Source of the DNA: Lacinutrix venerupis | GTDB taxonomy: Bacteria > Bacteroidota > Bacteroidia > Flavobacteriales > Flavobacteriaceae | Assembly: GCF_003663945.1 (NCBI RefSeq) | Contig: NZ_RCCH01000007.1 | Location: forward strand, 1-64,000 | Length of the DNA stretch: 64,000 bases | Reading direction: 5' to 3' | Part shown: one piece after another, positions 5,679 through 17,863 of the stretch | Numbering within the stretch: the first letter of the stretch is position 1 | Layout of the letters: each line of letters opens with the position of its first letter | The notes under the pieces: model-generated | What the model was told of the DNA's origin: nothing | Databases searched by the model: none | What the model saw: the letters and a program-made list of their open reading frames with translations, nothing else | Translations under genes and position numbers: made by a program

Positions 5679-5707
5679 TGTTAACTTTAGACTGCTCCAA
5701 ACATTAA
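5679..5707 (+). promoter_or_regulatory. predicted ECF-sigma promoter (TGTTAAC-N16-CATTAA)
   Basis: TGTTAAC (5679-5685) is followed after 16 nt by CATTAA (5702-5707), 26 nt before the ATG of the small lipoprotein that leads the CHAT operon. The same pair occurs at 10313-10340 and 12380-12408 and, on the minus strand, at 10240-10269. The spacing fits -35 and -10 elements of an ECF sigma factor, here inferred to be the one encoded at 9676-10239. Confidence 0.6.
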
Positions 5708-5733
5708 GTTAATATAACACAAAACAAAAACTT

Positions 5734-6204
5734 ATGAAAGCAGCTATTTTAGCTTTATTTTTCTTATTTACTTTAGCAAACTCTTGTAAAAATGATGATA
5801 AAGAAAGTATTAAATTATCCGAGCAAAATCACTTAACAGAAGCTCAATTATTTACCTTACACAAAAAAAACAGTGACGAAAGGTACGAGAACACAACCTC
5901 TTTAGATTCTATTCCTATTGGAGGTGGAGATCCTCTACCACCTTGCCCAGACAGTTCTTATACAGATTGTTGCCCTACATTAAGATATGTTACGTTTAAA
6001 AAAGGCACAAAAAATATTACAATTATATTACTAGATGAGAACAATAAAGAAGTGCAAAAGTTTACAGAATCTGATTTAGAAACCAACAAAGATGGAAGTT
6101 TAATATTTTCTTTAAAAAAATTAAAAGCATCTATATGTAATGGTGAAAATAAATTAAAAGTAAAATCTGGAAACAAAAGACCTTATGTTGTAAAGTTTAA
6201 ATAA
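5734..6204 (+). CDS. small lipoprotein of unknown function preceding the CHAT gene
   Basis: A 156-residue lipoprotein with signal peptide MKAAILALFFLFTLANSC and the lipid-carrying Cys at about 18. The mature part has a Gly/Pro-rich turn (IPIGGGDPLPPC) and four or so further cysteines (CPDS, CC, ASIC) that could form disulfides outside the cytoplasm. The C-terminal 80 residues are short beta-strand-like segments. I do not recognise a named family. It is followed after 14 nt by the TPR-CHAT gene, so the two form an operon headed by the predicted sigma-dependent promoter at 5679. A partner, substrate or sensor for the CHAT protein is possible but speculative. Confidence 0.7.
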   Translation: MKAAILALFFLFTLANSCKNDDKESIKLSEQNHLTEAQLFTLHKKNSDERYENTTSLDSIPIGGGDPLPPCPDSSYTDCCPTLRYVTFKKGTKNITIILLDENNKEVQKFTESDLETNKDGSLIFSLKKLKASICNGENKLKVKSGNKRPYVVKFK

Positions 6205-6218
6205 GATTATTCATAATA

Positions 6219-8948
6219 ATGAAAAACATCTTATCCTCCATTTTCTTAATTATAACCTGCTTTAGTTTTTCGCAAGAAAAAAATAATGAGTTCGAGAAGT
6301 CTATTAAAACGCTATATAACAAAGCAATTTCTGTAGCCTTTAAAGATCAAGATTCCGGATATTTTTATTTACAAAAAAGCATTGCGCTTTCTAAGCAAAA
6401 AAAACATTGGCAATACGCAATGGATGCCTATTTTGAAAGTTATAACATAGCTTTTCATTATAATAACTTACACAAAAAAAAAATTATTTTAAAGAGCATA
6501 GATTCTTTATATAATAAACAAGAGCATTATTTTAACAAACTAGATAACACACTTAAATATAAAAACCATATAAACTATTATTATGGTTTTTATTTTTTTA
6601 GACTAAACAATTACGATACATCAAAAAAATATTTTCAAAATATAATTGATGACACAGAAAACCAGGATAGTGAAACATTAAAAAAAAATAAAACTTTTTT
6701 ATCTGTTGCATATAGCTACATTGCAAAAATGAATGCAGATGAAGGAAAACTATCTGAATCCAGCTCGTTATACCAAAAAAATATTAGACTATTAAAAAAA
6801 ATAGACAGTACGAATAAAAGTTCTATTTTTTATAACTACAACTTACTTGCCGAAGTTTTAAAAAAAGAAAAAAAGCACACTGCATCCAATGCTTATTTTT
6901 TAAAATCTCTTGCATACCATATATCTAAAAACAGTCCAAATTCTATAATGTCTTCTAGTTTTAATATTTCAAAAAATTATATTGAATTATCTAAAATTGA
7001 TTCCGCTAAATACTATTTAAATATTGCTAAAAAACATTTAAATAAAAACCATTTATACAATACAACTTATCATGAGCTAAACGCCCAAATTTATAGCCAG
7101 GAAAGCAACTACAGCAAGGCTATTTTAGAACTAAATAAAGCTTTATATTTTTACAAAAACTACGCTACAACTGCAAAAAACAAAAATCAAAATTTAGGCT
7201 TAGCCTATACCAACATAGGCGAGTTGCAACAAAAATTTAACAAACCCAATCTAGCATTAAACAATTTTAATACTGCCATACAGTTTTTTAAAAATGATTC
7301 TATAAAATCGAGCATAAATAATATACACCTTTTAAAAACATTAAAATTAAAAGCAAACACATTAAATAATATTGGAGATTTTAAAAAAACTATAGCAACT
7401 GTAGATTACGCCTCTTCTATTTTAGATGAACTAAAACCAAGTTTTAAAAATAATAATGATAAGCTTTTTTTAATAGAAAATGCTTTTCCTTTATTTGAGT
7501 ATGGAATAAACGCAGCTTACCAGCTAAACATAAAAAGTAAGAAAAACAATTATATTGAAAAAGCTTTTTTATATACCGAAAAAAGTAAAAGTGTTTTACT
7601 ATTAGAAGCTTTATTAAACAGTAAAGCTACAGAGTATGCAAATATTCCTATAAAAATATTAGAAGAAGAAGAAATATTAAAAAACGAAATTACAAGTTTA
7701 GAAAAAAAAATTAACAGTAATAAAAACGAAACTCTAGAAGATGAGCTCTTTAATTTAAAAATTAAACATCGCAAATTTGTTGAAAAACTTGAAACAGATT
7801 ATAAAAATTATTATAATTTAAAATACAACTTTCAAGCTATTACATTAAACGAAACAAAGAAAATGCTTAACAATAACGAGCAACTTATATCTTATTTCTT
7901 TGGAGAAAACGCTTTATACACTATTTCTGTTTCTAGAAATAATAATCAATTAATAAAAACATCTTTAAATTCTAATATTAAAAGCGATATAGAATTAACA
8001 TACAGAATGCTTAGTAACCCAAAGTCTAATTTAAACCAGCTAAAAAATCGACTTAAAACATTACACAAAAACACTATTGCTCCTATTTCTTTAATGCATA
8101 AAAATTTAATTATTATTCCAGATGGATTATTAAATTATATTCCGTTTGCTACATTAATAGATAATAACTCTAAGTATTTAATAGAAAATCATACTGTTAG
8201 TTATATAAATTCCGCAACCTTATTAAAGCAATTGCAAAGCAAGCAAATAAATAACCATAATTTATTAGCTTTTGCTCCAAGCTTTAGCAACAACAACTCT
8301 TTATTACCTTTACCTAATAACAAAAAGGAAGCAGACAATTGTTTAAATTATTTTAAGGGAAGTGCTTTAAAAAACGAAAATGCTACCTTAACTAAATTCA
8401 ATACAGAAAGTCCTAAATATAGTATTTTACATTTGGCAACTCATGCTGTTTTTAATGATTATAATCCCGAATATTCTTTTTTAGCCTTTTCGGAAAATCC
8501 AGGAAAAGAAAACTTACTTTATACTAAAGATCTTTATAATCTTAAATTAAATGCAGACTTAGTAACATTAAGTGCATGCGAAAGTGGTATTGGAGAATTA
8601 AAACGTGGAGAAGGTTTAATGAGTTTAGCTCGTGGCTTTTATTTTAGTGGCGCAAAAAGTATTGCTAGTACTTTATGGAAAATTAACGATGCTTCTGCTA
8701 CAAATTTAATGGATAATTTTTATTTAAACCTATCTAAAGGAAGCACCAAAAACAGTGCTTTACAAAAAGCGCAAGTTAATTTTATAAATAATAATAGAGA
8801 CAATGCACTTAACCATCCTTATTATTGGGCTGGCTTTATTATTTCTGGAAATATTGTTGCCTTAAATACTACAAATTACTGGCTCTGGTTTGGCATAGCT
8901 ACTGCTTTAGCTTTATTACTTCTACTCTATCTAAAACGTAAAAATTAG
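6219..8948 (+). CDS. exported TPR protein with C-terminal CHAT (caspase-like) protease domain
   Basis: A 909-residue protein. It has a signal peptide (MKNILSSIFLIITCFSFSQ), tetratricopeptide-type helical repeats at about 60-400 and a charged coiled-coil at about 470-530. The CHAT domain spans about 590-870, with the expected His-Cys dyad: H742 in LATHAVF and C787 in LSACESGIGE, followed by the conserved GEGLMSLARGF and STLWKI segments. A final hydrophobic helix (about 886-904) ends in KRKN. CHAT domains belong to the caspase-hemoglobinase fold and are usually cysteine peptidases. The signal peptide plus terminal anchor predicts TPR and CHAT facing the periplasm. The gene converges on the anti-sigma gene and overlaps its stop by 4 nt (TTAG). 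Confidence 0.9.
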   Translation: MKNILSSIFLIITCFSFSQEKNNEFEKSIKTLYNKAISVAFKDQDSGYFYLQKSIALSKQKKHWQYAMDAYFESYNIAFHYNNLHKKKIILKSIDSLYNKQEHYFNKLDNTLKYKNHINYYYGFYFFRLNNYDTSKKYFQNIIDDTENQDSETLKKNKTFLSVAYSYIAKMNADEGKLSESSSLYQKNIRLLKKIDSTNKSSIFYNYNLLAEVLKKEKKHTASNAYFLKSLAYHISKNSPNSIMSSSFNISKNYIELSKIDSAKYYLNIAKKHLNKNHLYNTTYHELNAQIYSQESNYSKAILELNKALYFYKNYATTAKNKNQNLGLAYTNIGELQQKFNKPNLALNNFNTAIQFFKNDSIKSSINNIHLLKTLKLKANTLNNIGDFKKTIATVDYASSILDELKPSFKNNNDKLFLIENAFPLFEYGINAAYQLNIKSKKNNYIEKAFLYTEKSKSVLLLEALLNSKATEYANIPIKILEEEEILKNEITSLEKKINSNKNETLEDELFNLKIKHRKFVEKLETDYKNYYNLKYNFQAITLNETKKMLNNNEQLISYFFGENALYTISVSRNNNQLIKTSLNSNIKSDIELTYRMLSNPKSNLNQLKNRLKTLHKNTIAPISLMHKNLIIIPDGLLNYIPFATLIDNNSKYLIENHTVSYINSATLLKQLQSKQINNHNLLAFAPSFSNNNSLLPLPNNKKEADNCLNYFKGSALKNENATLTKFNTESPKYSILHLATHAVFNDYNPEYSFLAFSENPGKENLLYTKDLYNLKLNADLVTLSACESGIGELKRGEGLMSLARGFYFSGAKSIASTLWKINDASATNLMDNFYLNLSKGSTKNSALQKAQVNFINNNRDNALNHPYYWAGFIISGNIVALNTTNYWLWFGIATALALLLLLYLKRKN

Positions 8949-9673
8949 TGTAATTCTTTTAAAAGTGCTTCAGCCTTAGATTTGTTGTAATTAAAATTCT
9001 CGGTTAACATTCTTAATTGTTTGGTAGCCTCTATTTTATTTTTTTCTTTAATTGCTATTAAAGCCAAATACCAGTGTGACTCTGCAACAAATGTGCTGTT
9101 TTTATTAATAATATTATTAAATATATTTTTTGCCTCCTTTAAATTGCCTATTTCTAAATACGCTTGAGCTTTATAAAAAGCTTGATAAGGTTTTTGTTCT
9201 TCTATAGGAATAATTTTAAAATTAGATATTGCATTATCAAAGTCTCCAGCCTCGTACGCCACAAAAGCTTTACGCTCGAAAGAATCAATTGTATCGCTTC
9301 GTGTTATTGGAAATTCGGTATTAGGATAGTTACTAAAATTAGCATCGTACAAACTGTTATAATTTACACCAAAAAAAGAATTGTATCCAAACCAACTTGC
9401 TCCAAGAAAAAATACTATTGATGCAGCAATACGCCAATTAAATTTTGATTTTTTCTTAAAAGTTTCAGTTGTAGAAATATCTGCTTCAAAAGCTTTTAGT
9501 TTTTCTTTTAGCTTATTTGAATTCTCTTTTTTAATTGCTTGTTTTAAATTGTTTTCAAATTCAAAATCAGCTTTAAATTTTGCATCACTTTCTAAACGCT
9601 TATTAAAGACTATTAATTCGTCTTCGTTTAAACTATTAGAAAAATATCGATATAGTAAATCTTCGTTAGTCAT
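8945..9673 (-). CDS. membrane TPR protein, probable anti-sigma factor
   Basis: A 242-residue protein with an acidic/helical N-terminal domain (about 1-78) that resembles anti-sigma N-termini (LLYRYFSNSLNEDEL). After a KKKSKF positive patch comes one membrane helix (about 82-100), then a TPR-like region at about 125-240 (AFVAYEAGDFDNAISNF, AYLEIGNLKEAKNIF). Positive-inside charge predicts the N-terminus in the cytoplasm and the TPRs outside. It lies 2 nt after the ECF sigma gene in the same operon, which is the main reason for the anti-sigma call. No sequence motif proves sigma binding. It shares TPR architecture and compartment with the convergent CHAT protein. Confidence 0.75.
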   Translation of the reverse strand: MTNEDLLYRYFSNSLNEDELIVFNKRLESDAKFKADFEFENNLKQAIKKENSNKLKEKLKAFEADISTTETFKKKSKFNWRIAASIVFFLGASWFGYNSFFGVNYNSLYDANFSNYPNTEFPITRSDTIDSFERKAFVAYEAGDFDNAISNFKIIPIEEQKPYQAFYKAQAYLEIGNLKEAKNIFNNIINKNSTFVAESHWYLALIAIKEKNKIEATKQLRMLTENFNYNKSKAEALLKELH

Positions 9674-9675
9674 TA

Positions 9676-10239
9676 TTAGTTGCTATTAATACGTTCTTTA
9701 AGAGTTTTCATGCAACGCGACTTTGCGCTCTTAATTACGTTTTCATTATTATAATTCCCTTGTTCTAAAATGTCTTTTATTGTAAAACCTCTATAATAAA
9801 ACAGGTTTAATAACTCTTGACATTGTTTTCCTAAACTTGAAAAATGCTTTCGCAATAATTCTTGTTCGTGAGTTAAAGCTTGTTCTTCAATTTCAAACGT
9901 TTCTAGTAATTTATCATCATCTCTAACAATAGATAAGTCGAAATTTGAGCCTACCTTTTTGTTATTCTTTTTCATCTTATCAAAAATTAAATACTTACCT
10001 ACACTAAATAAATATGTAGATATACTACTAGTTAACGTTTCTATTTTACCAGACATTATATTATTATAAAAAATAACATAGGCATCTTGATAAATATCTA
10101 CCACATCGTCCTGTGGCAAATTGTATCGCCTTGCAAAATTTATAAACTTATCTCTATTCTCTTCATACACTTTTCTAAGTGCTTTATCCGAACCTTGTTT
10201 TAAATCTTCCAGGATAATATGCTCTTGTTGGTTTATCAT
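9676..10239 (-). CDS. ECF-type RNA polymerase sigma factor
   Basis: A 187-residue sigma-70 family protein with region 2 (QDDVVDIYQDAYVIFYNNI, about 44-62, and the following YLFSVGKYLIFDKMKK) and region 4 (LLNLFYYRGFTIKDIL, then NVIKSAKSRCMKTL) and no region 1 or 3, the ECF layout. It is first in an operon with the membrane TPR anti-sigma candidate. The ATG at 10239 abuts a CATTAA box of the same motif found upstream of the neighbouring operons. Autoregulation is therefore likely, though the box would place the transcription start at or inside the first codons. No alternative ATG lies nearby. Confidence 0.93.
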   Translation of the reverse strand: MINQQEHIILEDLKQGSDKALRKVYEENRDKFINFARRYNLPQDDVVDIYQDAYVIFYNNIMSGKIETLTSSISTYLFSVGKYLIFDKMKKNNKKVGSNFDLSIVRDDDKLLETFEIEEQALTHEQELLRKHFSSLGKQCQELLNLFYYRGFTIKDILEQGNYNNENVIKSAKSRCMKTLKERINSN

Positions 10240-10269
10240 TTAATGGTATTGCGCTTTAAAAGGTTAACA
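10240..10269 (-). promoter_or_regulatory. predicted ECF-sigma element facing the sigma gene
   Basis: On the minus strand TGTTAAC (10269-10263) is followed after 17 nt by CATTAA (10245-10240), directly touching the sigma ATG. It is the reverse-oriented partner of the element at 10313-10340. The adjacency to the start codon is odd: as a -10 box it would start transcription inside codon 2 or 3. Confidence 0.4.
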
Positions 10270-10324
10270 GATGCTTAGCTAAATTAACTTTTTTTAAATA
10301 AAAAAGACAATCTGTTAACCTTTT
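10258..10324. repeat. 15-bp perfect inverted repeat between divergent promoters
   Basis: AAAAGGTTAACAGAT (10258-10272) and ATCTGTTAACCTTTT (10310-10324) are perfect reverse complements separated by 37 bp. They carry the -35-like cores of the two divergent predicted sigma promoters, so the symmetry probably reflects two copies of one extended promoter element rather than a hairpin. Confidence 0.8.
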
Positions 10325-10340
10325 CTTTTTTAATGCATTA
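10313..10340 (+). promoter_or_regulatory. predicted ECF-sigma promoter (TGTTAAC-N15-CATTAA)
   Basis: TGTTAAC (10313-10319) and CATTAA (10335-10340) are spaced by 15 nt and lie 27 nt before the ATG at 10368, giving a normal leader. The element includes the extra match CCTTTT after TGTTAA, shared with the copies at 12380 and 10269. Confidence 0.6.
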
Positions 10341-10367
10341 AGAAGTAAACAAATTAAAATTTTTAAT

Positions 10368-10715
10368 ATGAAAACTTTAAAAATAATTTTAGCAATACTT
10401 GCTTTTGCCTTTTCGGTATTTGCCATTGCACAAGAAAAAAAAGCAGATTCTACGCTTGTAAAAAAAGACAATTTATTAGACATGGGAGCCAATGTTATAT
10501 CACAGGTTTTTGGTTCTAATTTAGATGGAAATACAGACGGAAAAACCATTGGCTATTTAGAACTTTTAGAAAAATCTGATTTATCTGAAGCCGAAAAAAC
10601 AGAATACAAAAACCTATACCATATACAAGCAAAAGATCTTACTCAAAAACAAAAAGATTCTTTAGGTAAAGCTATTGAGAAAAGGATTCTTGAAGCAAAA
10701 GAAACAGACGATTAA
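10368..10715 (+). CDS. small exported protein of unknown function
   Basis: A 115-residue protein with signal peptide (MKTLKIILAILAFAFSVFAIAQ). The mature part is charged and helical, rich in Lys/Glu/Asp, with no cysteine and no motif I recognise. It is the first gene of a three-gene unit (10368-12215) with a 21-bp gap to the next gene. It is preceded by a predicted ECF-sigma promoter, so it likely belongs to the stress regulon of the adjacent sigma factor. Periplasmic location is predicted from the signal peptide. Confidence 0.7.
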   Translation: MKTLKIILAILAFAFSVFAIAQEKKADSTLVKKDNLLDMGANVISQVFGSNLDGNTDGKTIGYLELLEKSDLSEAEKTEYKNLYHIQAKDLTQKQKDSLGKAIEKRILEAKETDD

Positions 10716-10736
10716 TTAAAATAAACACGTTTTAAA

Positions 10737-11567
10737 ATGAAAACTTTACAAACATTATTAACCATTATTATAATTGCATTTAGCACAACTACTAATGCTC
10801 AAATTTGGAAAAAATTATCTAAAAAAGCCGAGAAAGCTGTAGAAAACACTTTAGAAAAAAAGGTTGAAGAAAAGGCAGAACGCGAAACAGACAAAGCTTT
10901 CGACTCTACATTTAATAATTCAAAAAAAAGTAAAACAAAAAATAATAAAACTAGTGGCAAGTTATTTGGCATGTCTAACGCTATTCCAGAAAACTCATAT
11001 CAATTTAGCCATAAATATAATATGGAAATAAGCGATGGTAAAAAACCTCTAAATATGACCTATTATCTTAATAAATCTAACAACTACTTAGGCTTCGAAA
11101 TTCCGGATTTAAAAAATAAAACAATTACAGTAATGGATTTAGAAAAAGAAGTCATGTTCATGTTTATGGATAATAAAGGAGACAAAACATTAATGTCCAT
11201 GAATATGAATTTGGATAAAATAACAAATGATGCTATTGAAGACACAGAATATTCTGTAACAGCAACAGGTAATACAAAAACAATATTAGGTTACACCTGC
11301 AAAGAGTATAATGTAAAAGGTAAAGATTTACATGGCAATGTTTGGGTTACAGAAAATGCAGGAGTTTCATTTTCTAAAACTTTTTACAGAACAAAACAAA
11401 AAAAAGGAATGGACCAAACCTGGATGTCTTTAGTTAATGGCTTACCAATGGAAATGAAAATAACAGACACTTCTAGAAGAAAAGCAAAAACTACAACTAT
11501 GAACTGTGTTTTATTAAAGGAAGAAAATTTCTCTATAGACACAACTAACTATAAAAAAATAATGTAA
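10737..11567 (+). CDS. exported DUF4412-type protein
   Basis: A 276-residue protein with signal peptide (MKTLQTLLTIIIIAFSTTTNAQ). A strongly amphipathic Lys/Glu helix (about 25-75, KKAEKAVENTLEKK) is followed by a beta-rich domain (about 90-276). The segment ILGYTCKEYNVKG and the following HGNVWVTENAGV are typical of DUF4412, a family of secreted Bacteroidota proteins with no established activity. It is the middle gene of the 10368-12215 unit, next to a small secreted protein and a barrel. Regulation by the neighbouring ECF sigma factor is inferred. Confidence 0.75.
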   Translation: MKTLQTLLTIIIIAFSTTTNAQIWKKLSKKAEKAVENTLEKKVEEKAERETDKAFDSTFNNSKKSKTKNNKTSGKLFGMSNAIPENSYQFSHKYNMEISDGKKPLNMTYYLNKSNNYLGFEIPDLKNKTITVMDLEKEVMFMFMDNKGDKTLMSMNMNLDKITNDAIEDTEYSVTATGNTKTILGYTCKEYNVKGKDLHGNVWVTENAGVSFSKTFYRTKQKKGMDQTWMSLVNGLPMEMKITDTSRRKAKTTTMNCVLLKEENFSIDTTNYKKIM

Positions 11568-11594
11568 TCACACATCAATTAAATAATAATAATT

Positions 11595-12215
11595 ATGAAT
11601 ATACAAACCACATATAACAACAGAACTCTAAAATTAATAATCACTATAACCTTATTCTTTATTACATTAATAAGTACTGCACAAGAAAGTTTTACCGCTA
11701 AAACTCAAGGCAACTTTTATGCTAATGGAACAATTGGTGTAATTTCTACAAACGAAAAATCTAAAATTGGAGGCACTACAAACGATGTAGGCTCAACATT
11801 TCAAGTTACAGGAACACCAAGATTAGGTTATTTTATTACAGATAAAGTTACTGCTGGATTAGAACTTGAAGTAAGAACTACCACTAGTAAAATAGAAGGT
11901 TTTGACGGAGAAACCACTTCTAATGCTCTTTCTGCTGGACCATTTGCTCGATATTATTTTGACATAGGAGTTTTTGCAGAAGTTACAGCAGCTATTGGTA
12001 CATCTAAAACCACATCTGCTTTTGGAGACATGCAATCTAGCATTTTTGCTTTACGTGGTACTGCAGGATATTCCTTTTTTATAGGCGATCATGTAGCAAT
12101 AGAACCTGCAATAAATTATACAAGTCAAAGTCAAAAACCCAAAGGAAGCTCTGAAGACAATAAAATTATTTTAAACACCATTTATTTTAGTGTAGGTTTT
12201 ACAGCTTATTTTTAA
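11595..12215 (+). CDS. small outer-membrane beta-barrel protein
   Basis: A 206-residue protein with an uncleaved-looking N-terminal extension, then a hydrophobic export segment ending at STAQE (about 30). The mature part has alternating strands (FYANGTIGVIS, TPRLGYFITDKVTAGLEL, FARYYFDIGVFAEVTAA) and ends in an aromatic strand (FSVGFTAYF), as in OmpW/OmpX-like 8-strand barrels. It is the last gene of the three-gene unit, 27 nt after the DUF4412 gene and upstream of a strong terminator. A role in envelope homeostasis is inferred from location and context only. Confidence 0.8.
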   Translation: MNIQTTYNNRTLKLIITITLFFITLISTAQESFTAKTQGNFYANGTIGVISTNEKSKIGGTTNDVGSTFQVTGTPRLGYFITDKVTAGLELEVRTTTSKIEGFDGETTSNALSAGPFARYYFDIGVFAEVTAAIGTSKTTSAFGDMQSSIFALRGTAGYSFFIGDHVAIEPAINYTSQSQKPKGSSEDNKIILNTIYFSVGFTAYF

Positions 12216-12284
12216 AAACATTATATCAATTTTTATTTTCCCTTTATAACTATTAAATAGATTTCATTTTTAGGTTAGTTTGTT

Positions 12285-12318
12285 AAAGAGTCGAAGTTAA
12301 AACTTCGGCTCTTTTTCT
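12285..12318 (+). terminator. intrinsic terminator
   Basis: The 14-bp stem AAAGAGTCGAAGTT / AACTTCGGCTCTTT has one G-T pair and a 2-nt apparent loop, and is followed by T-rich sequence. It ends the 10368-12215 operon. Confidence 0.85.
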
Positions 12319-12379
12319 TTTTGTTTATAACCTTTAGCAAAGCTTAAATGCAATTATTTTTATTTTTTTTTAGTCTTTA

Positions 12380-12408
12380 TGTTAACCTTTTTTTCTTGAT
12401 AACATTAA
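12380..12408 (+). promoter_or_regulatory. predicted ECF-sigma promoter (TGTTAAC-N16-CATTAA)
   Basis: TGTTAAC (12380-12386) and CATTAA (12403-12408) are spaced by 16 nt, 40 nt before the ATG of the collagen-like lipoprotein. This is the fourth copy of the island motif and shares the CCTTTT extension with the copy at 10313. Confidence 0.6.
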
Positions 12409-12448
12409 ATGGTAAATAAACTATTAATCACATTTTAAAATTAAAATC

Positions 12449-13021
12449 ATGAAAACAATTTCAACAACAATTTCAACAACAAAATATTTTCTATTAGCTT
12501 TATTAGTAGCTTTTAGTTTCTCATGCTCTCCAGAAGATGGTGAAGATGGAGCCATTGGTCCTGCAGGACCTGCCGGAGCAAATGGTGTAGATGGTAATGC
12601 CAATGTGCAAACATTAACTTTTGATGCTACAACTTTTGCAGGTTCTTATGACTCTGTAGCAATAACAGAACTTACACAAGATGTAATAGATAACGATGTT
12701 GTATTAAGTTATTTAACAGAGGACAACTCTGTATGGGTTCCAATACCTTGCCCTTACGATACTATTGCCTTTAACTTTTCTGTACATGTCACACTTTATG
12801 ATGGTGGAATGGACTTAGATTACCAAGATGCATCTGGTTCTGCCTATACCGTTACAGCTGGAAACTTACAAACTCTTAAAGTTGTTATTATAGAATCTAC
12901 AAGTACAACAGCAGGAAAAACTAATAACGGTAAACAACAAATTTACAATGAGCTTGCTCAAGCTGGTATAGATATTAAAGATTATCAAGCTGTTTGCGAC
13001 TATTATGGTATTGCATATTAA
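12449..13021 (+). CDS. lipoprotein with short collagen-like segment
   Basis: A 190-residue lipoprotein. The N-terminus contains a threonine repeat (TISTTISTTK), a hydrophobic stretch and the lipobox FSFSC (Cys about 26). Directly after comes a short Gly-X-Y tract (GEDGAIGPAGPAGANG, about 31-46) typical of collagen-like Bacteroidota lipoproteins. The remaining 140 residues form a beta-rich globular domain with two late cysteines. It is monocistronic between a predicted ECF-sigma promoter and a strong terminator, and is probably surface or periplasm exposed. No activity can be assigned. Confidence 0.8.
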   Translation: MKTISTTISTTKYFLLALLVAFSFSCSPEDGEDGAIGPAGPAGANGVDGNANVQTLTFDATTFAGSYDSVAITELTQDVIDNDVVLSYLTEDNSVWVPIPCPYDTIAFNFSVHVTLYDGGMDLDYQDASGSAYTVTAGNLQTLKVVIIESTSTTAGKTNNGKQQIYNELAQAGIDIKDYQAVCDYYGIAY

Positions 13022-13042
13022 TTACTAATTTTCTTTAAATTT

Positions 13043-13077
13043 AAAAACCGAAGGCAAAAGTCTTCGGTTTTTTTTAT
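13043..13077 (+). terminator. intrinsic terminator
   Basis: The stem AAAACCGAAG / CTTCGGTTTT has a short loop and is followed by a T run. It ends the collagen-like lipoprotein gene. Confidence 0.85.
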
Positions 13078-13135
13078 TCCTTTTTTCTACTTAAATGTTT
13101 ACTATTGTACTTCATTTTCAATCTTATTTTTTACA

Positions 13136-14185
13136 ATGATTAATCGTAACCAAGCAAGTATTTCAAAATTTATAATTCATAAAGTAGGTAATAAACATAA
13201 CGACACAAAAAATGCATTTTCAGATAAAGAAGTACATTTTGATGAAGAAAGCTACGAACTTATGTTGCCTTTTTTATTAAGACCATTTGGTAGTGCTGTA
13301 CAAAGCTACCGTTTTAACCATCATGCCAATGTAGAGTTAAACGAAATTAATGCTTACGCTAAAACTATTTTTAACGATGATGATGCTTTTGTAGAAACAT
13401 CAAAAAACATAGTAAAACACTTATACGAGCAAAGCAACTCTGCACAAATAAAAACTGGAGATGTTTTAGTGGCTATTTTTGAGGGTATAGAATATAAAGA
13501 AATGGTTACTAACGCAATTGGTATTTTTAAAATTGAAAATAAAATAAATTTCTTTCAAACCTATTTAGAAGACAATAGTTATGATGTTTTGGTACAAAAA
13601 GGAATCTCGTCTAAAAAAGTAGACAAAGGTTGCTTAATATTAAACCAAACAGATATGGAAGGTAATATTGTTTTAAGTGTAGACAATAACAGCTACGATG
13701 CACAATATTGGCTAGAAAAGTTCCTAAATATTAAGTATGCCGATGATATGAATAATCACACACACAATTACTTGAACATGTGTAGTGAATTTTCTACCGA
13801 AATTTTAAAGCCTAGTTATGGCGAGCAAGAACGAAATATATTTCTTGCAAAAACAATAGACTATTTTAAAGAGAACGAAATAATTAACGTCGAAAATTTT
13901 AAAGAAGAAATTTTTACCGAGGAATCTCACATTCGTCTTTTTGAAGATTTTAAAAAAGAATACGAAGGTGAACAAAACATTTTACTACGTAACCAGTTTG
14001 ATTTAGCCGAAGCTGTAGTAAAAAAGGACAAGAAGAAAATAAAAACTGATATTAAACTCGATACTAATATTCAAATAAAATTAGATATAGACGCACCAGA
14101 CGCCGCTAGCGAATACTTAGAACGTGGTTATGACGAAGAAAAGAAAATGCATTATTATAAAGTATTTTTTAATGCAGAAGGATAA
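13136..14185 (+). CDS. nucleoid-associated protein, NdpA/YejK family
   Basis: A 349-residue cytoplasmic protein. The start FIIHKVGNK, the F-L-L-R-P-F segment near residue 50 and the QTDMEGNIVLSVDN region follow the 37-kDa nucleoid-associated protein family (NdpA, YejK in Escherichia coli), whose members bind DNA and are spread through the nucleoid. The length is as expected. It is monocistronic, with the next gene (VOC family) starting 52 nt downstream. The precise role in Bacteroidota is unknown. The family call is by remembered motif similarity, not alignment. Confidence 0.8.
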   Translation: MINRNQASISKFIIHKVGNKHNDTKNAFSDKEVHFDEESYELMLPFLLRPFGSAVQSYRFNHHANVELNEINAYAKTIFNDDDAFVETSKNIVKHLYEQSNSAQIKTGDVLVAIFEGIEYKEMVTNAIGIFKIENKINFFQTYLEDNSYDVLVQKGISSKKVDKGCLILNQTDMEGNIVLSVDNNSYDAQYWLEKFLNIKYADDMNNHTHNYLNMCSEFSTEILKPSYGEQERNIFLAKTIDYFKENEIINVENFKEEIFTEESHIRLFEDFKKEYEGEQNILLRNQFDLAEAVVKKDKKKIKTDIKLDTNIQIKLDIDAPDAASEYLERGYDEEKKMHYYKVFFNAEG

Positions 14186-14724: not shown

Positions 14725-16221
14725 ATGAAAAAACTACTTATTCTAAGCTTATTACTAATAGTACAATTAAGCTTTTCACAATCTACTACCAATTTAAAAG
14801 TTAGCGAAAGTGCAGAATATAAAGACAAAGTAAAATCTTTAGATGTCTTAACAATACATACTAATAATTCTGGCGAAACAGGAATTGTAAGAAACGCAAA
14901 AAGAGATTTCCTTTTCGATATTTTCGATAGTAATCTCAATAAAACATTTTCTAAAGTTGTAGAAAGCGATAAAAAAGAAACTTATGTTGGTGATCTATTT
15001 TATAACAATACCATAAAACTATTTACCGTATTTGCTCCCAAAAAAGACGAACGTATTGTTTACTGTCATACTTTAAATTTAAACACAAAATCTTATAATA
15101 AATCTACAATATTTAGCACTACTGTCGAGAAAAAACAAAGTTTATTTGGCTCCAGAAAAAACCACAATACCAGTTTTGCATTATCTAACAATGGTAAATA
15201 TTTTGCCATAGCTACAGATAATATTAGAAAACATAAAAACTCATACACTATTCGTGTATTTGATGCAGAAACCGAAAAACTAATTTATACAAAAGCATAC
15301 CAAGAAAGCGAAAAGAAAAACTTCGAACATAACGATTTACATATAGACAATAACGGCACAGTATATTCTTTAGGAAAACTATATTTAAAAGGACGCTCTA
15401 ATAAAAAGTTTAATGGAGATGCTAATTACAAGTTTGTTTTAAACAAAATAACAAAAGACAGTAATACAGAGCTAGTATTAGAATTAAAAGACGAACATAT
15501 ACAATCCCTTAGTATTTCAGAAAACAATAATCAATTACATTTAATGGGATTCTATTCAGAATTAAATGTAGGACGAATAAAAGGTGGGTGCGATTTTGTT
15601 ATAGACACTAATAATTTTAATGTAAAATCTAAAAAAGCACAAGCCTTACCTAAACAAGTTTACGAAGATTTATATGGCTACAGAACCGCTAAAAGAAAAA
15701 ACAAGAAAAAGAAAGAACTAAGAAATTTTTACATAGATTATGTTTTAACAGACAGTAAAGGAGGCACTTTTTTAATTGCCGAAGAGTTTTATATTACTCA
15801 AGTTTATGTACAAACTGGAATGTCTGGTGGTTATTGGCAAACAACTTACCATTACGACGATATTTTAATATTAAAATTTAGCCCAAGTGGAGAGCTAGCT
15901 TGGGGAAGAAGCATTTTTAAAAGAGCAAATGTACCGTCTTATAACACTTTTTTAAAAAACGACAAGTTACATGTTGTATTAAACTCTGGTAAGAATCTTA
16001 CAGAAAAAAACGATGGCAGAACAAAAGTATCTAAAGGATGGTTTGAATCTTCTGCACTATACGATTTTGAATACACTACAAACGGAGAAGTTTCATACAA
16101 TAAAATACAAGACAATAGAGGTAACACCTATTATTTACCAAACTATGGTACTTTTGAGTTAGATAAATTTATTATGATGAGCGACGGTAGAAAGAAAAAA
16201 ATTTTTATGACTTTAGAGTAA
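14725..16221 (+). CDS. exported protein of unknown function, parent of the remnant at 20380
   Basis: A 498-residue protein with signal peptide (MKKLLILSLLLIVQLSFSQ). The mature part is beta-rich with alternating short strands and no cysteine-rich or catalytic motif I can name. Segments such as FALSNNGKYFAIATDN and YTIRVFDAETEKLIY look like propeller blades, so a secreted beta-propeller is plausible. The last 33 residues are nearly repeated in a decayed copy at 20380-20490, showing that this locus was once duplicated. It precedes the TPR-LytTR regulator by 124 nt. Confidence 0.7.
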   Translation: MKKLLILSLLLIVQLSFSQSTTNLKVSESAEYKDKVKSLDVLTIHTNNSGETGIVRNAKRDFLFDIFDSNLNKTFSKVVESDKKETYVGDLFYNNTIKLFTVFAPKKDERIVYCHTLNLNTKSYNKSTIFSTTVEKKQSLFGSRKNHNTSFALSNNGKYFAIATDNIRKHKNSYTIRVFDAETEKLIYTKAYQESEKKNFEHNDLHIDNNGTVYSLGKLYLKGRSNKKFNGDANYKFVLNKITKDSNTELVLELKDEHIQSLSISENNNQLHLMGFYSELNVGRIKGGCDFVIDTNNFNVKSKKAQALPKQVYEDLYGYRTAKRKNKKKKELRNFYIDYVLTDSKGGTFLIAEEFYITQVYVQTGMSGGYWQTTYHYDDILILKFSPSGELAWGRSIFKRANVPSYNTFLKNDKLHVVLNSGKNLTEKNDGRTKVSKGWFESSALYDFEYTTNGEVSYNKIQDNRGNTYYLPNYGTFELDKFIMMSDGRKKKIFMTLE

Positions 16222-16345
16222 TTAAATAGCTAAACAACTTAACATAAAAACTAATTTCGTTTACTACCTCTTATCAATTTTTAAGTAGCGTTTAATACAA
16301 AACAGACCTATTAATAATTGATAGAACGAAACTAACAAATAATAA

Positions 16346-17863
16346 ATGAACTTAACCATACCCAAAATTTATATTAATATAAGTTTAATTATCGTATTCC
16401 TATTATTTACAAATACTTTATTATCTCAAATATCAAATCAAAAAAATTATGAAATTGAGAATTTATACTTTGATGCAATTCTCTTAAAAAACTGGATAAA
16501 AACAGATAGTTTAAGAAAAATTTTAAAAAAACATATTGTAACCGAAGAAGATAAAGCAAATTTTAACTACTATAAAGGATACGAGTTTTTTCATAAAGAA
16601 GAATATAAAAAAGCTTTAGAACACTACCTAAAAGCTAGAAAACAGTTTATCGAATTAAGGGATATAGAAAATCAAGCAGAATTAGAAGGTGCTATAGTAG
16701 AAATCATAGCATATATGGACCCAAAATTAATCGATTATGAAATATATCTTAACTCCCTTTGCGAAATAGCAAGTAAAACAAAAAGTAAAACTTCTGTATC
16801 CGACTGTGAATATTTTAGAGGTTATTTTAAAGAAATAGAAGGCAAATATAATGACGCTTTAAAACACTATATAAACACTGGTCTTCTAGCCTTAAAATAC
16901 AAAGACACTTTAGCTTATTACACTAATGAAATTAACGTTGGTTCAATGCAATTAAAATTAAAAAAATACAAAAAAGCATTAAACACCTTCAATAAATCTA
17001 AAAGCTACTATAACAAAATAGGCAATTTGGATAAGAATTTTTTAATAAACCTATACATCTCTAAAATTTTATTGGCGCAAAAAAAACACTCTCTTTCTTT
17101 AGACGCCTTAAATAAAAGTAAAAACATAAACGCAGTTAGTCCTAGTTATGAAAACAGTTTCGACTTATATACTCAATTTTCAGAATTTTACTTCCAAACA
17201 AAAAACTATAAAAAAGCATACACAAATAGTATAATAGCACAACTATATAAAGATACTATTGTATCTAAAAAAACCGAAAAAGAAATTTACCAATTTAAAT
17301 TAAAATACGAAGTTTCTGAAAAAGAAAATAAGCTAATTAAAATTGAAAATGAAAATCTAAATTTAAAAAATAAGCGAACGCAAAACTTAACAGCCTTACT
17401 AATTAGTATCCTAACAATAATTGTTTTATCATTTGTTATTTTATTTTTCAAAAAAAAGTATAATGTATCAAAAAATGAATTTCAAACAATACAACAAGAA
17501 CTAAACACTTTAAAAGAACAAAGATTAAATAGTAATAAAATAAAGGAAGGCGAATTAATAAATCTAAAAAGTAAAGCTATATTAAACAGCAGTGAAATTC
17601 TATATATAAAATCTGATGGACATTATGTAGAATACCATTTAGACAATAAAAATAAACCAGAAATAGATAGAAACTCATTAAATGAAGTTTTAAAAATATT
17701 ACCAAATAGTTCTTTCGTTAGAATTCATAGATCTTTTGTTGTAAATATTTATCGAATTAAAATAATAAACTCTTCAAAAGTAATGCTTGACAATGGAGTT
17801 TGGATAAATTTATCAAGGACCTACAAACAACAACTTAAAGACATTCTACACAAAGAAGATTAA
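16346..17863 (+). CDS. membrane TPR regulator with C-terminal LytTR DNA-binding domain
   Basis: A 505-residue one-component regulator. It has an N-terminal export/anchor segment (about 8-28), TPR-like repeats at about 60-320 (YYKGYEFFHKEEYKKALEHY, LKLKKYKKALNTF), a membrane helix at about 346-368 and a coiled coil to about 400. The LytTR domain at about 409-503 carries ILYIKSDGHYVEYH, SSFVRIHRSFVVNI and the terminal WINLSRTYKQQL. LytTR domains bind DNA through a beta fold. The topology places the TPRs outside and LytTR inside, so TPR ligand sensing could control transcription directly. A near-perfect inverted repeat lies just downstream, in front of two exported proteins. Confidence 0.88.
   Translation: MNLTIPKIYINISLIIVFLLFTNTLLSQISNQKNYEIENLYFDAILLKNWIKTDSLRKILKKHIVTEEDKANFNYYKGYEFFHKEEYKKALEHYLKARKQFIELRDIENQAELEGAIVEIIAYMDPKLIDYEIYLNSLCEIASKTKSKTSVSDCEYFRGYFKEIEGKYNDALKHYINTGLLALKYKDTLAYYTNEINVGSMQLKLKKYKKALNTFNKSKSYYNKIGNLDKNFLINLYISKILLAQKKHSLSLDALNKSKNINAVSPSYENSFDLYTQFSEFYFQTKNYKKAYTNSIIAQLYKDTIVSKKTEKEIYQFKLKYEVSEKENKLIKIENENLNLKNKRTQNLTALLISILTIIVLSFVILFFKKKYNVSKNEFQTIQQELNTLKEQRLNSNKIKEGELINLKSKAILNSSEILYIKSDGHYVEYHLDNKNKPEIDRNSLNEVLKILPNSSFVRIHRSFVVNIYRIKIINSSKVMLDNGVWINLSRTYKQQLKDILHKED

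Follow-up and report, generated by a model that had tools for sequence, protein, structure and literature searches.

A conserved promoter motif at the start codon of a flavobacterial ECF sigma factor gene and its possible role in negative feedback

A two-box motif, TGTTAAC-spacer-CATTAA, was found at four sites around a gene for an extracytoplasmic function (ECF) sigma factor (9676-10239, minus strand) in a 64,000-nucleotide stretch of Lacinutrix venerupis DNA, referred to below as the window (contig C7 of a Flavobacteriaceae genome of 3.12 Mb in 19 contigs). Three sites precede genes for exported proteins, and the fourth abuts the start codon of the sigma gene itself. The reading favoured here, which is considered somewhat probable, is that the four sites are the -35 and -10 elements of this sigma factor and that its own gene carries a start-fused module of two promoters, P1 and P2, that gives negative feedback. 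RNA polymerase with the ECF sigma factor would read all four sites, three of which would switch on exported proteins and lipoproteins as well as an outer-membrane barrel; a TPR-CHAT protein is among these products. The sigma-gene module would be a rigid unit of 50 bp: P1, then P2 and last the start codon, to which the -10 box of P2 is fused. P1 would make the productive sigma/anti-sigma message, free sigma would occupy P2 and thereby hide P1, and the P2 message would begin past the start codon, giving no sigma and at most anti-sigma. As active sigma would block P1 and give a message without sigma, the loop would be negative.

The analysis gives a flavobacterial ECF sigma factor a sharply defined promoter motif and a regulon that can be tested, with surface lipoproteins, collagen-like lipoproteins and the TPR-CHAT protein among the targets. 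If the feedback model is true, the locus is a small circuit that limits itself, with the sign of feedback set by sequence geometry alone, and a sigma site at the sigma gene could no longer be taken, as is usual, to indicate positive autoregulation. Among the open-licence papers listed in literature searches, none was seen that describes a start-fused module.

Sigma factor gene and motif sites

ECF (group 4) sigma factors have the sigma2 and sigma4 domains without sigma1.1 and sigma3 and are about 190 residues (aa) long. The protein studied here agrees in size and domains, with 187 aa, a TIGR02937 match over residues 20-183 at 54.3 bits (cut-off 42.9) and a Pfam Sigma70_r2 score of 23.4 (cut-off 24). 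Its nearest named relatives are from Lacinutrix, at 88, 81, 80 and 78% identity.

All four sites claimed by the initial annotation were present. On the plus strand they lie at 5679-5707, ahead of the lipoprotein/CHAT operon (T-type variant TGTTAACTTTA), at 10313-10341, ahead of a three-gene secreted/barrel operon, and at 12380-12408, ahead of a collagen-like lipoprotein gene, each with a spacer of 16 nt. P2 (10240-10269, minus strand) is an ECF promoter-like site of the form TGTTAAC-N17-CATTAA, spacer 17 nt, that abuts the sigma ATG. The coordinates first given were exact for three sites, and the one starting at 10313 ends a single base beyond its claimed end. By dinucleotide shuffles 0.09 matches to the pattern were expected in the window, and none of 100 shuffles reached four. 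TGTTAAC alone was not enriched (15 in the window, 16.35 expected). With open frames of at least 90 aa taken as genes, 11 of these strings lay inside such frames and the only four outside them were the four sites, as had been proposed. A matrix built from 124 sites of relatives, window excluded, scored the sites at 29.5, 29.5, 27.8 and 21.3, and the next-best score in the window was 14.2, inside the gene at 374-2371; the matrix was trained on sites with a fixed TGTTAAC and is hence blind to sites much different there.

In the whole genome, a loose pattern (N14-18) gave nine matches (two in the backwards control), four of them at the locus and four of the other five intragenic, including C10:23965. 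As a definition of the regulon this pattern was rejected, being near the level of the backwards control in 149 family genomes (table, by eye). The discriminating version was a refined form with C or T and then T after TGTTAAC and a spacer of 16 or 17 nt. A relaxed pattern gave eight matches in this genome, four of them outside the locus. Two of these, C2:359897 and C4:186094, were dismissed as additional regulon members because they are intragenic, and C9:22381 has a same-strand gene of at least 466 aa about 100 nt downstream but lacks CT after TGTTAAC. The one further match outside the locus, given by the loose and the relaxed pattern alike, is a good motif copy at C6:146898-146926 (locus L003). 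It has a gene for a secreted-looking protein of 213 aa about 240 nt downstream and is a possible distant regulon member. The earlier claim that the motif clusters at exactly four starts holds for this genome as far as the loose and relaxed patterns show, but relatives have sites elsewhere in the genome too.

Conservation of the motif

The comparison of syntenic loci bore out the proposed local regulon: 17 named relatives keep gene order and motif, and in them the motif recurs before the sigma, collagen-like, DUF4412/115-aa and lipoprotein/CHAT genes, an exact copy being absent from some genes in some species. The refined pattern, TGTTAACYT-N14/15-CATTAA, was found in 79 of 397 family genomes. 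It was present in all 29 genomes with a sigma match at E<=1e-57 (110 sites; 7 in the backwards control), a cut-off set post hoc at the gap between 4.6e-58 and 2.0e-52. The other 368 genomes had 56 sites in 50 genomes against a hand-counted 63 or so in the control, which is background. Relatives also carry refined sites away from the sigma locus. A set of 40 stretches was taken from among the refined-pattern matches listed. The spacer was 16 nt in 95 and 17 nt in 29 of 124 sites, the pattern having allowed only these two lengths. The boxes have the character of an ECF -35/-10 pair, with AAC in the -35 box and linkage to a sigma gene. We infer, with good support, that the motif is read by this ECF sigma factor. 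The mostly exported proteins of the local regulon are marked by a motif that is conserved across species alongside the sigma gene.

Chance clustering of an AT-rich string can be given practically no weight. It would agree with the chance level of TGTTAAC alone and with loose-pattern counts near control in random family genomes, but it is already refuted by conservation.

Among paralogous or distant sigma genes (L037, L038, L039, L022, L154 and L178) a GTTTAC variant of the -35 box was observed. It too sits at the start codon, a hint that box changes may be specific to the sigma factor.

Target genes and expected transcription start

The window and the 17 relatives held 67 distinct sites, of which 16 were at sigma starts, one was geneless and 50 had a downstream gene. 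In these 50 ordinary targets the median distance from the -10 box to the gene was 32 nt, and 46 fell within 7-52 nt. Past the hexamer, A was enriched at positions 6-8 (0.72, 0.72 and 0.65; 130 sites other than those at sigma genes, duplicates included), and transcription is expected to start there. For Flavobacterium psychrophilum, leaders with a median of 24 nt are reported (PMC9723704). If transcription begins about 7 nt past the box, the median distance of 32 nt would give leaders here close to that value.

A crude signal-peptide/lipobox rule was passed by 43 of the 50 targets. Away from the sigma locus (L110-L142), 26 of 36 sites preceded a gene passing the rule, and four had no open reading frame. 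Since the rule is also passed by 184 of the 312 genes at these loci overall, export of the targets is weak evidence. The lipoprotein/CHAT promoter had T at position 8 in 13 of 13 listed loci (window, L041, L042, L044, L045, L048 and L050-L056), where C has a frequency of 0.85 over all training sites; the T-type is perhaps a deliberately weaker promoter.

It is very improbable that the motif is instead the operator of another DNA-binding regulator. The palindromic GTTAAC would suit an operator, but the pair of boxes 16 or 17 nt apart, the AAC in the -35 box, the position 7-52 nt before genes, the co-occurrence with the sigma gene and the TGTTTAC variant at the same position with related sigma factors all speak for a sigma promoter.

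Start-codon fusion at the sigma gene

At sigma loci of at least 47% identity, the offset of the -10 box to the nearest in-frame start codon was -1 (4 loci), 0 (34) or +1 (8), which accounts for 46 of 46; eight loci had GTG starts, all at offset +1. Of all 71 loci, 58 had a site that outscored shuffles (p<=0.02); in 56 of these the offset was again -1, 0 or +1. Duplicates L143, L144, L148 and L149 were skipped in this count, and the loci are not independent, some records occurring twice (e.g. L011/L044, L013/L052). At offset 0 the TAA of the box is an in-frame stop immediately 5' of the ATG, so there can be no earlier sigma start at these loci.

For the counts of codon changes, and for those of the upstream element given below, homologues of at least 59% identity were used with duplicates removed (40 and 38 kept, respectively). 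In codons 2-9, 255 of the 378 base changes fell at third positions, much as in codons 10-60, with 1359 of 1956 (82 close pairs, which are not independent). This third-position excess in codons 2-9 makes the abutting codon very likely the true sigma start. No other in-frame start was present in the downstream range scanned at 38 of the 46 loci, and a candidate alternative start codon downstream was rejected, as none is common to the homologues. A start 6-8 nt past the box would put the beginning of the P2 message at codons 2-3, expected at about 10232-10234 in the window, and the start codon would be lost.

In a class-wide search (28 of 295 genomes) read by eye, L151, L154, L155 and L178 looked start-fused and L159, L163 and L175 did not, with a less clear picture at the other loci. 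A GTGACC-type site was found in 3 of 14 other Bacteroidota ECF loci, 14, 17 and 19 nt before the ATG.

The initial annotation had suggested an autoregulated regulon. The sigma gene does carry its own copy of the motif; simple autoregulation that raises sigma is disfavoured by a copy abutting the start codon at 46 of 46 loci. As P2 abuts the start codon, the transcript is expected to lack it, and negative feedback fits better. Ordinary positive autoregulation, with a normal ECF promoter raising sigma through a leaderless message that begins at the start codon, is considered unlikely. ECF operons are often autoregulated, the sigma gene and the activating targets share one motif, and offsets of -1 to +1 put the ATG or GTG at the extreme end of the box, all of which would suit such a promoter. 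However, ECF polymerases start about 6-8 nt past the -10 box, A is enriched there at the 130 other sites, and the GTGACC-type sites of the three other Bacteroidota ECF genes lie upstream at the distance a normal promoter would have.

A wider form of the negative feedback model can be put forward only tentatively, at slightly less than an even chance: a whole clade of Bacteroidota ECF sigma factors would use a start-codon-clipping switch. In it, fusion of the sigma factor's -10 box to the start codon, nested with a housekeeping promoter, would mean that whenever sigma acts on its own gene the resulting message cannot encode sigma.

Among the other Bacteroidota ECF genes, L164, L167 and L170 have a GTGACCTTTT...ATTAA site at the normal 14-19 nt from the ATG and form a natural contrast to the start-fused clade, and L165 and L172 resemble the GTGACC-type control loci by eye.

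Upstream element

A second element, TAnnTTAG (TAATTTAG, 10279-10286, minus strand), was found by conservation and position and is the putative housekeeping -7 box of P1. Of 38 non-redundant homologues, 34 had an A-tract with TAnnTTAG 16-18 bp upstream of TGTTAAC, and the remaining four had TAnnTTGG (one) or other near forms (three). At this position the form TA[AT][AT]TT[AG]G was present in 35 of the 38 sigma sites and in none of the 108 other sites; a looser rule gave 3 of 108. The element resembles the Bacteroidota housekeeping box, TAnnTTTG at -12 to -5 from the start (PMC9723704), and P1 is accordingly read as a putative housekeeping promoter. Its start would be expected at about 10274, with a leader of about 35 nt holding the entire ECF site. 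The element is the best candidate for P1, given that the 128-bp gap must hold a sigma promoter unless there is read-in from the side of the divergent gene.

That P2 is a real sigma-dependent promoter for an anti-sigma message only, with the upstream element as its UP element and no occlusion of a housekeeping promoter, is regarded as quite unlikely. Measured from the expected P2 start, the upstream element is about 45-62 nt away on the 5' side, where UP elements are found. A AATAGCAATG-like stretch precedes the anti-sigma ATG in many loci despite varying gaps (by eye), and rshA of Corynebacterium glutamicum offers a functional precedent (PMC3489674). Against this stand the absence of the element from the 108 other sites under the strict rule, a fusion to the sigma start codon that would be needless for an anti-sigma promoter, and the close packing of the two genes, which suggests translational coupling.

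Several results weigh against the negative feedback model. The gap between the sigma and anti-sigma genes is -8 to +12 nt in the 17 relatives; with such tight packing anti-sigma translation may be coupled to that of sigma, which would weaken the branch giving anti-sigma alone. In codons 2-9 amino-acid-changing codons outnumbered silent ones (165 to 128, compared with 571 to 1061 in codons 10-60), indicating a loosely constrained N-terminus. Another in-frame start 23-68 nt downstream was present at 8 of the 46 loci, and L106, L046 and L047 have an upstream in-frame start. As to P1, the canonical TAnnTTTG of distant homologues L030, L037 and L145 lies 8-12 rather than 16-18 bp before the site (by eye), and no -33 box was identified. 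TAnnTTAG before genes was weakly enriched (56 sense, 39 antisense; 295 regions), too weakly to be accepted as a general housekeeping box; TAnnTTTG before genes generally gave 86 sense and 46 antisense. The A-tract form occurred once in this genome against eight matches in the backwards control. Given the weak enrichment, the control matches and the 8-12-bp position, the element may represent an UP element, or the site of a regulator, rather than P1.

Comparison with known systems

In C. glutamicum, sigH and rshA (sigma and anti-sigma) are co-transcribed from housekeeping promoters, and a SigH-controlled promoter makes only anti-sigma as a monocistronic rshA transcript (PMC3489674). This is a precedent for the negative feedback model, and the present locus is alike in having a putative sigma-dependent promoter that would give anti-sigma without sigma. 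The difference lies in the fusion of the promoter to the sigma start codon and in its overlap with the putative housekeeping promoter.

The form of SigR made in Streptomyces is reportedly decided by the choice of promoter and start codon. There the ECF sigma factor exists in more than one form (SigR and SigR'), the extra, unstable isoform amplifying the response (PMC4921905), whereas the sigma-dependent start predicted here would remove the sole start codon of most homologues.

The locus also resembles the CASP system of Csx29 (TPR-CHAT), Csx30 and CASP-sigma (PMC10028731), in that a TPR-CHAT protein stands beside an ECF sigma factor and a putative inhibitor and the locus has several sigma sites. 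Unlike CASP, no protein of clustered regularly interspaced short palindromic repeats (CRISPR) systems was recognized among the locus proteins scanned, and the CHAT protein here has a predicted signal-peptide-like start and C-terminal hydrophobic anchor. The SM6 promoters of F. psychrophilum likewise represent a flavobacterial ECF regulon that includes a sigma/anti-sigma operon; they have a CGT box and targets of the type IX secretion system, in contrast to the CATTAA and the lipoprotein/barrel targets of this motif (PMC9723704).

Anti-sigma and CHAT proteins

The 242-aa protein encoded at 8945-9673 (minus strand) is a putative membrane anti-sigma factor, a role suggested by gene order and topology. 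Membrane anti-sigma factors share an operon with their sigma factor and have a cytoplasmic N-terminus and a single membrane helix. The order sigma then anti-sigma is kept in 17 of 17 named relatives. The protein has predicted N-terminal helices and a C-terminal TPR domain, and a membrane helix may lie in a low-confidence stretch at 66-101. In four of five proteins examined, a hydrophobic segment that begins at residue 71-82 passed a crude threshold, the window copy being the exception. Foldseek gave no match at E<=0.001, and the 50 listed of 1096 matches were TPR-like by title, with no known anti-sigma fold among them.

At least 16 of 17 homologues of the CHAT protein retain H742 and C787, as expected of a catalytic His/Cys pair. 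The best PDB relative by sequence had an E-value of 0.41. A CASP-type system would also include Cas7-11 (gRAMP), a crRNA and Csx30; in a search confined to proteins of the locus, PADLOC gave no match for six proteins, and no CRISPR families were found in Pfam (10 locus proteins) or NCBIfam (8 proteins; for sigma, the best 25 of 34 families). By analogy, it may be guessed that the CHAT protein cleaves the anti-sigma factor.

Neighbouring genes

The lipoprotein-like and TPR-CHAT genes are convergent to the sigma/anti-sigma pair. The former (5734-6204, plus strand) encodes a small lipoprotein-like exported protein of 156 aa without a match in Pfam, and the latter (6219-8948, plus strand) a protein of 909 aa with a signal-peptide-like start, a C-terminal hydrophobic segment and a Pfam CHAT match of 214.7 bits. 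Divergent from sigma, on the plus strand, are genes for an exported protein of 115 aa (10368-10715), an exported DUF4412 protein of 276 aa (10737-11567, by Pfam) and an outer-membrane beta-barrel protein of 206 aa (11595-12215, by Pfam), followed by the collagen-like lipoprotein of 190 aa (12449-13021, plus strand), for which the Pfam Collagen match (E 0.023) is below its cut-off.

In Lacinutrix neustonica (L042) the CHAT, DUF3352 and 115-aa genes are frame-split (11386-14042, 14821-17221 and 8404-8752, respectively), by decay or sequencing error. Collagen-like lipoprotein genes occur in at least two adjacent copies in L055 (6087-7908), L053 (4668-6088) and L054 (3843-5174), and several of these neighbouring copies carry their own motif.

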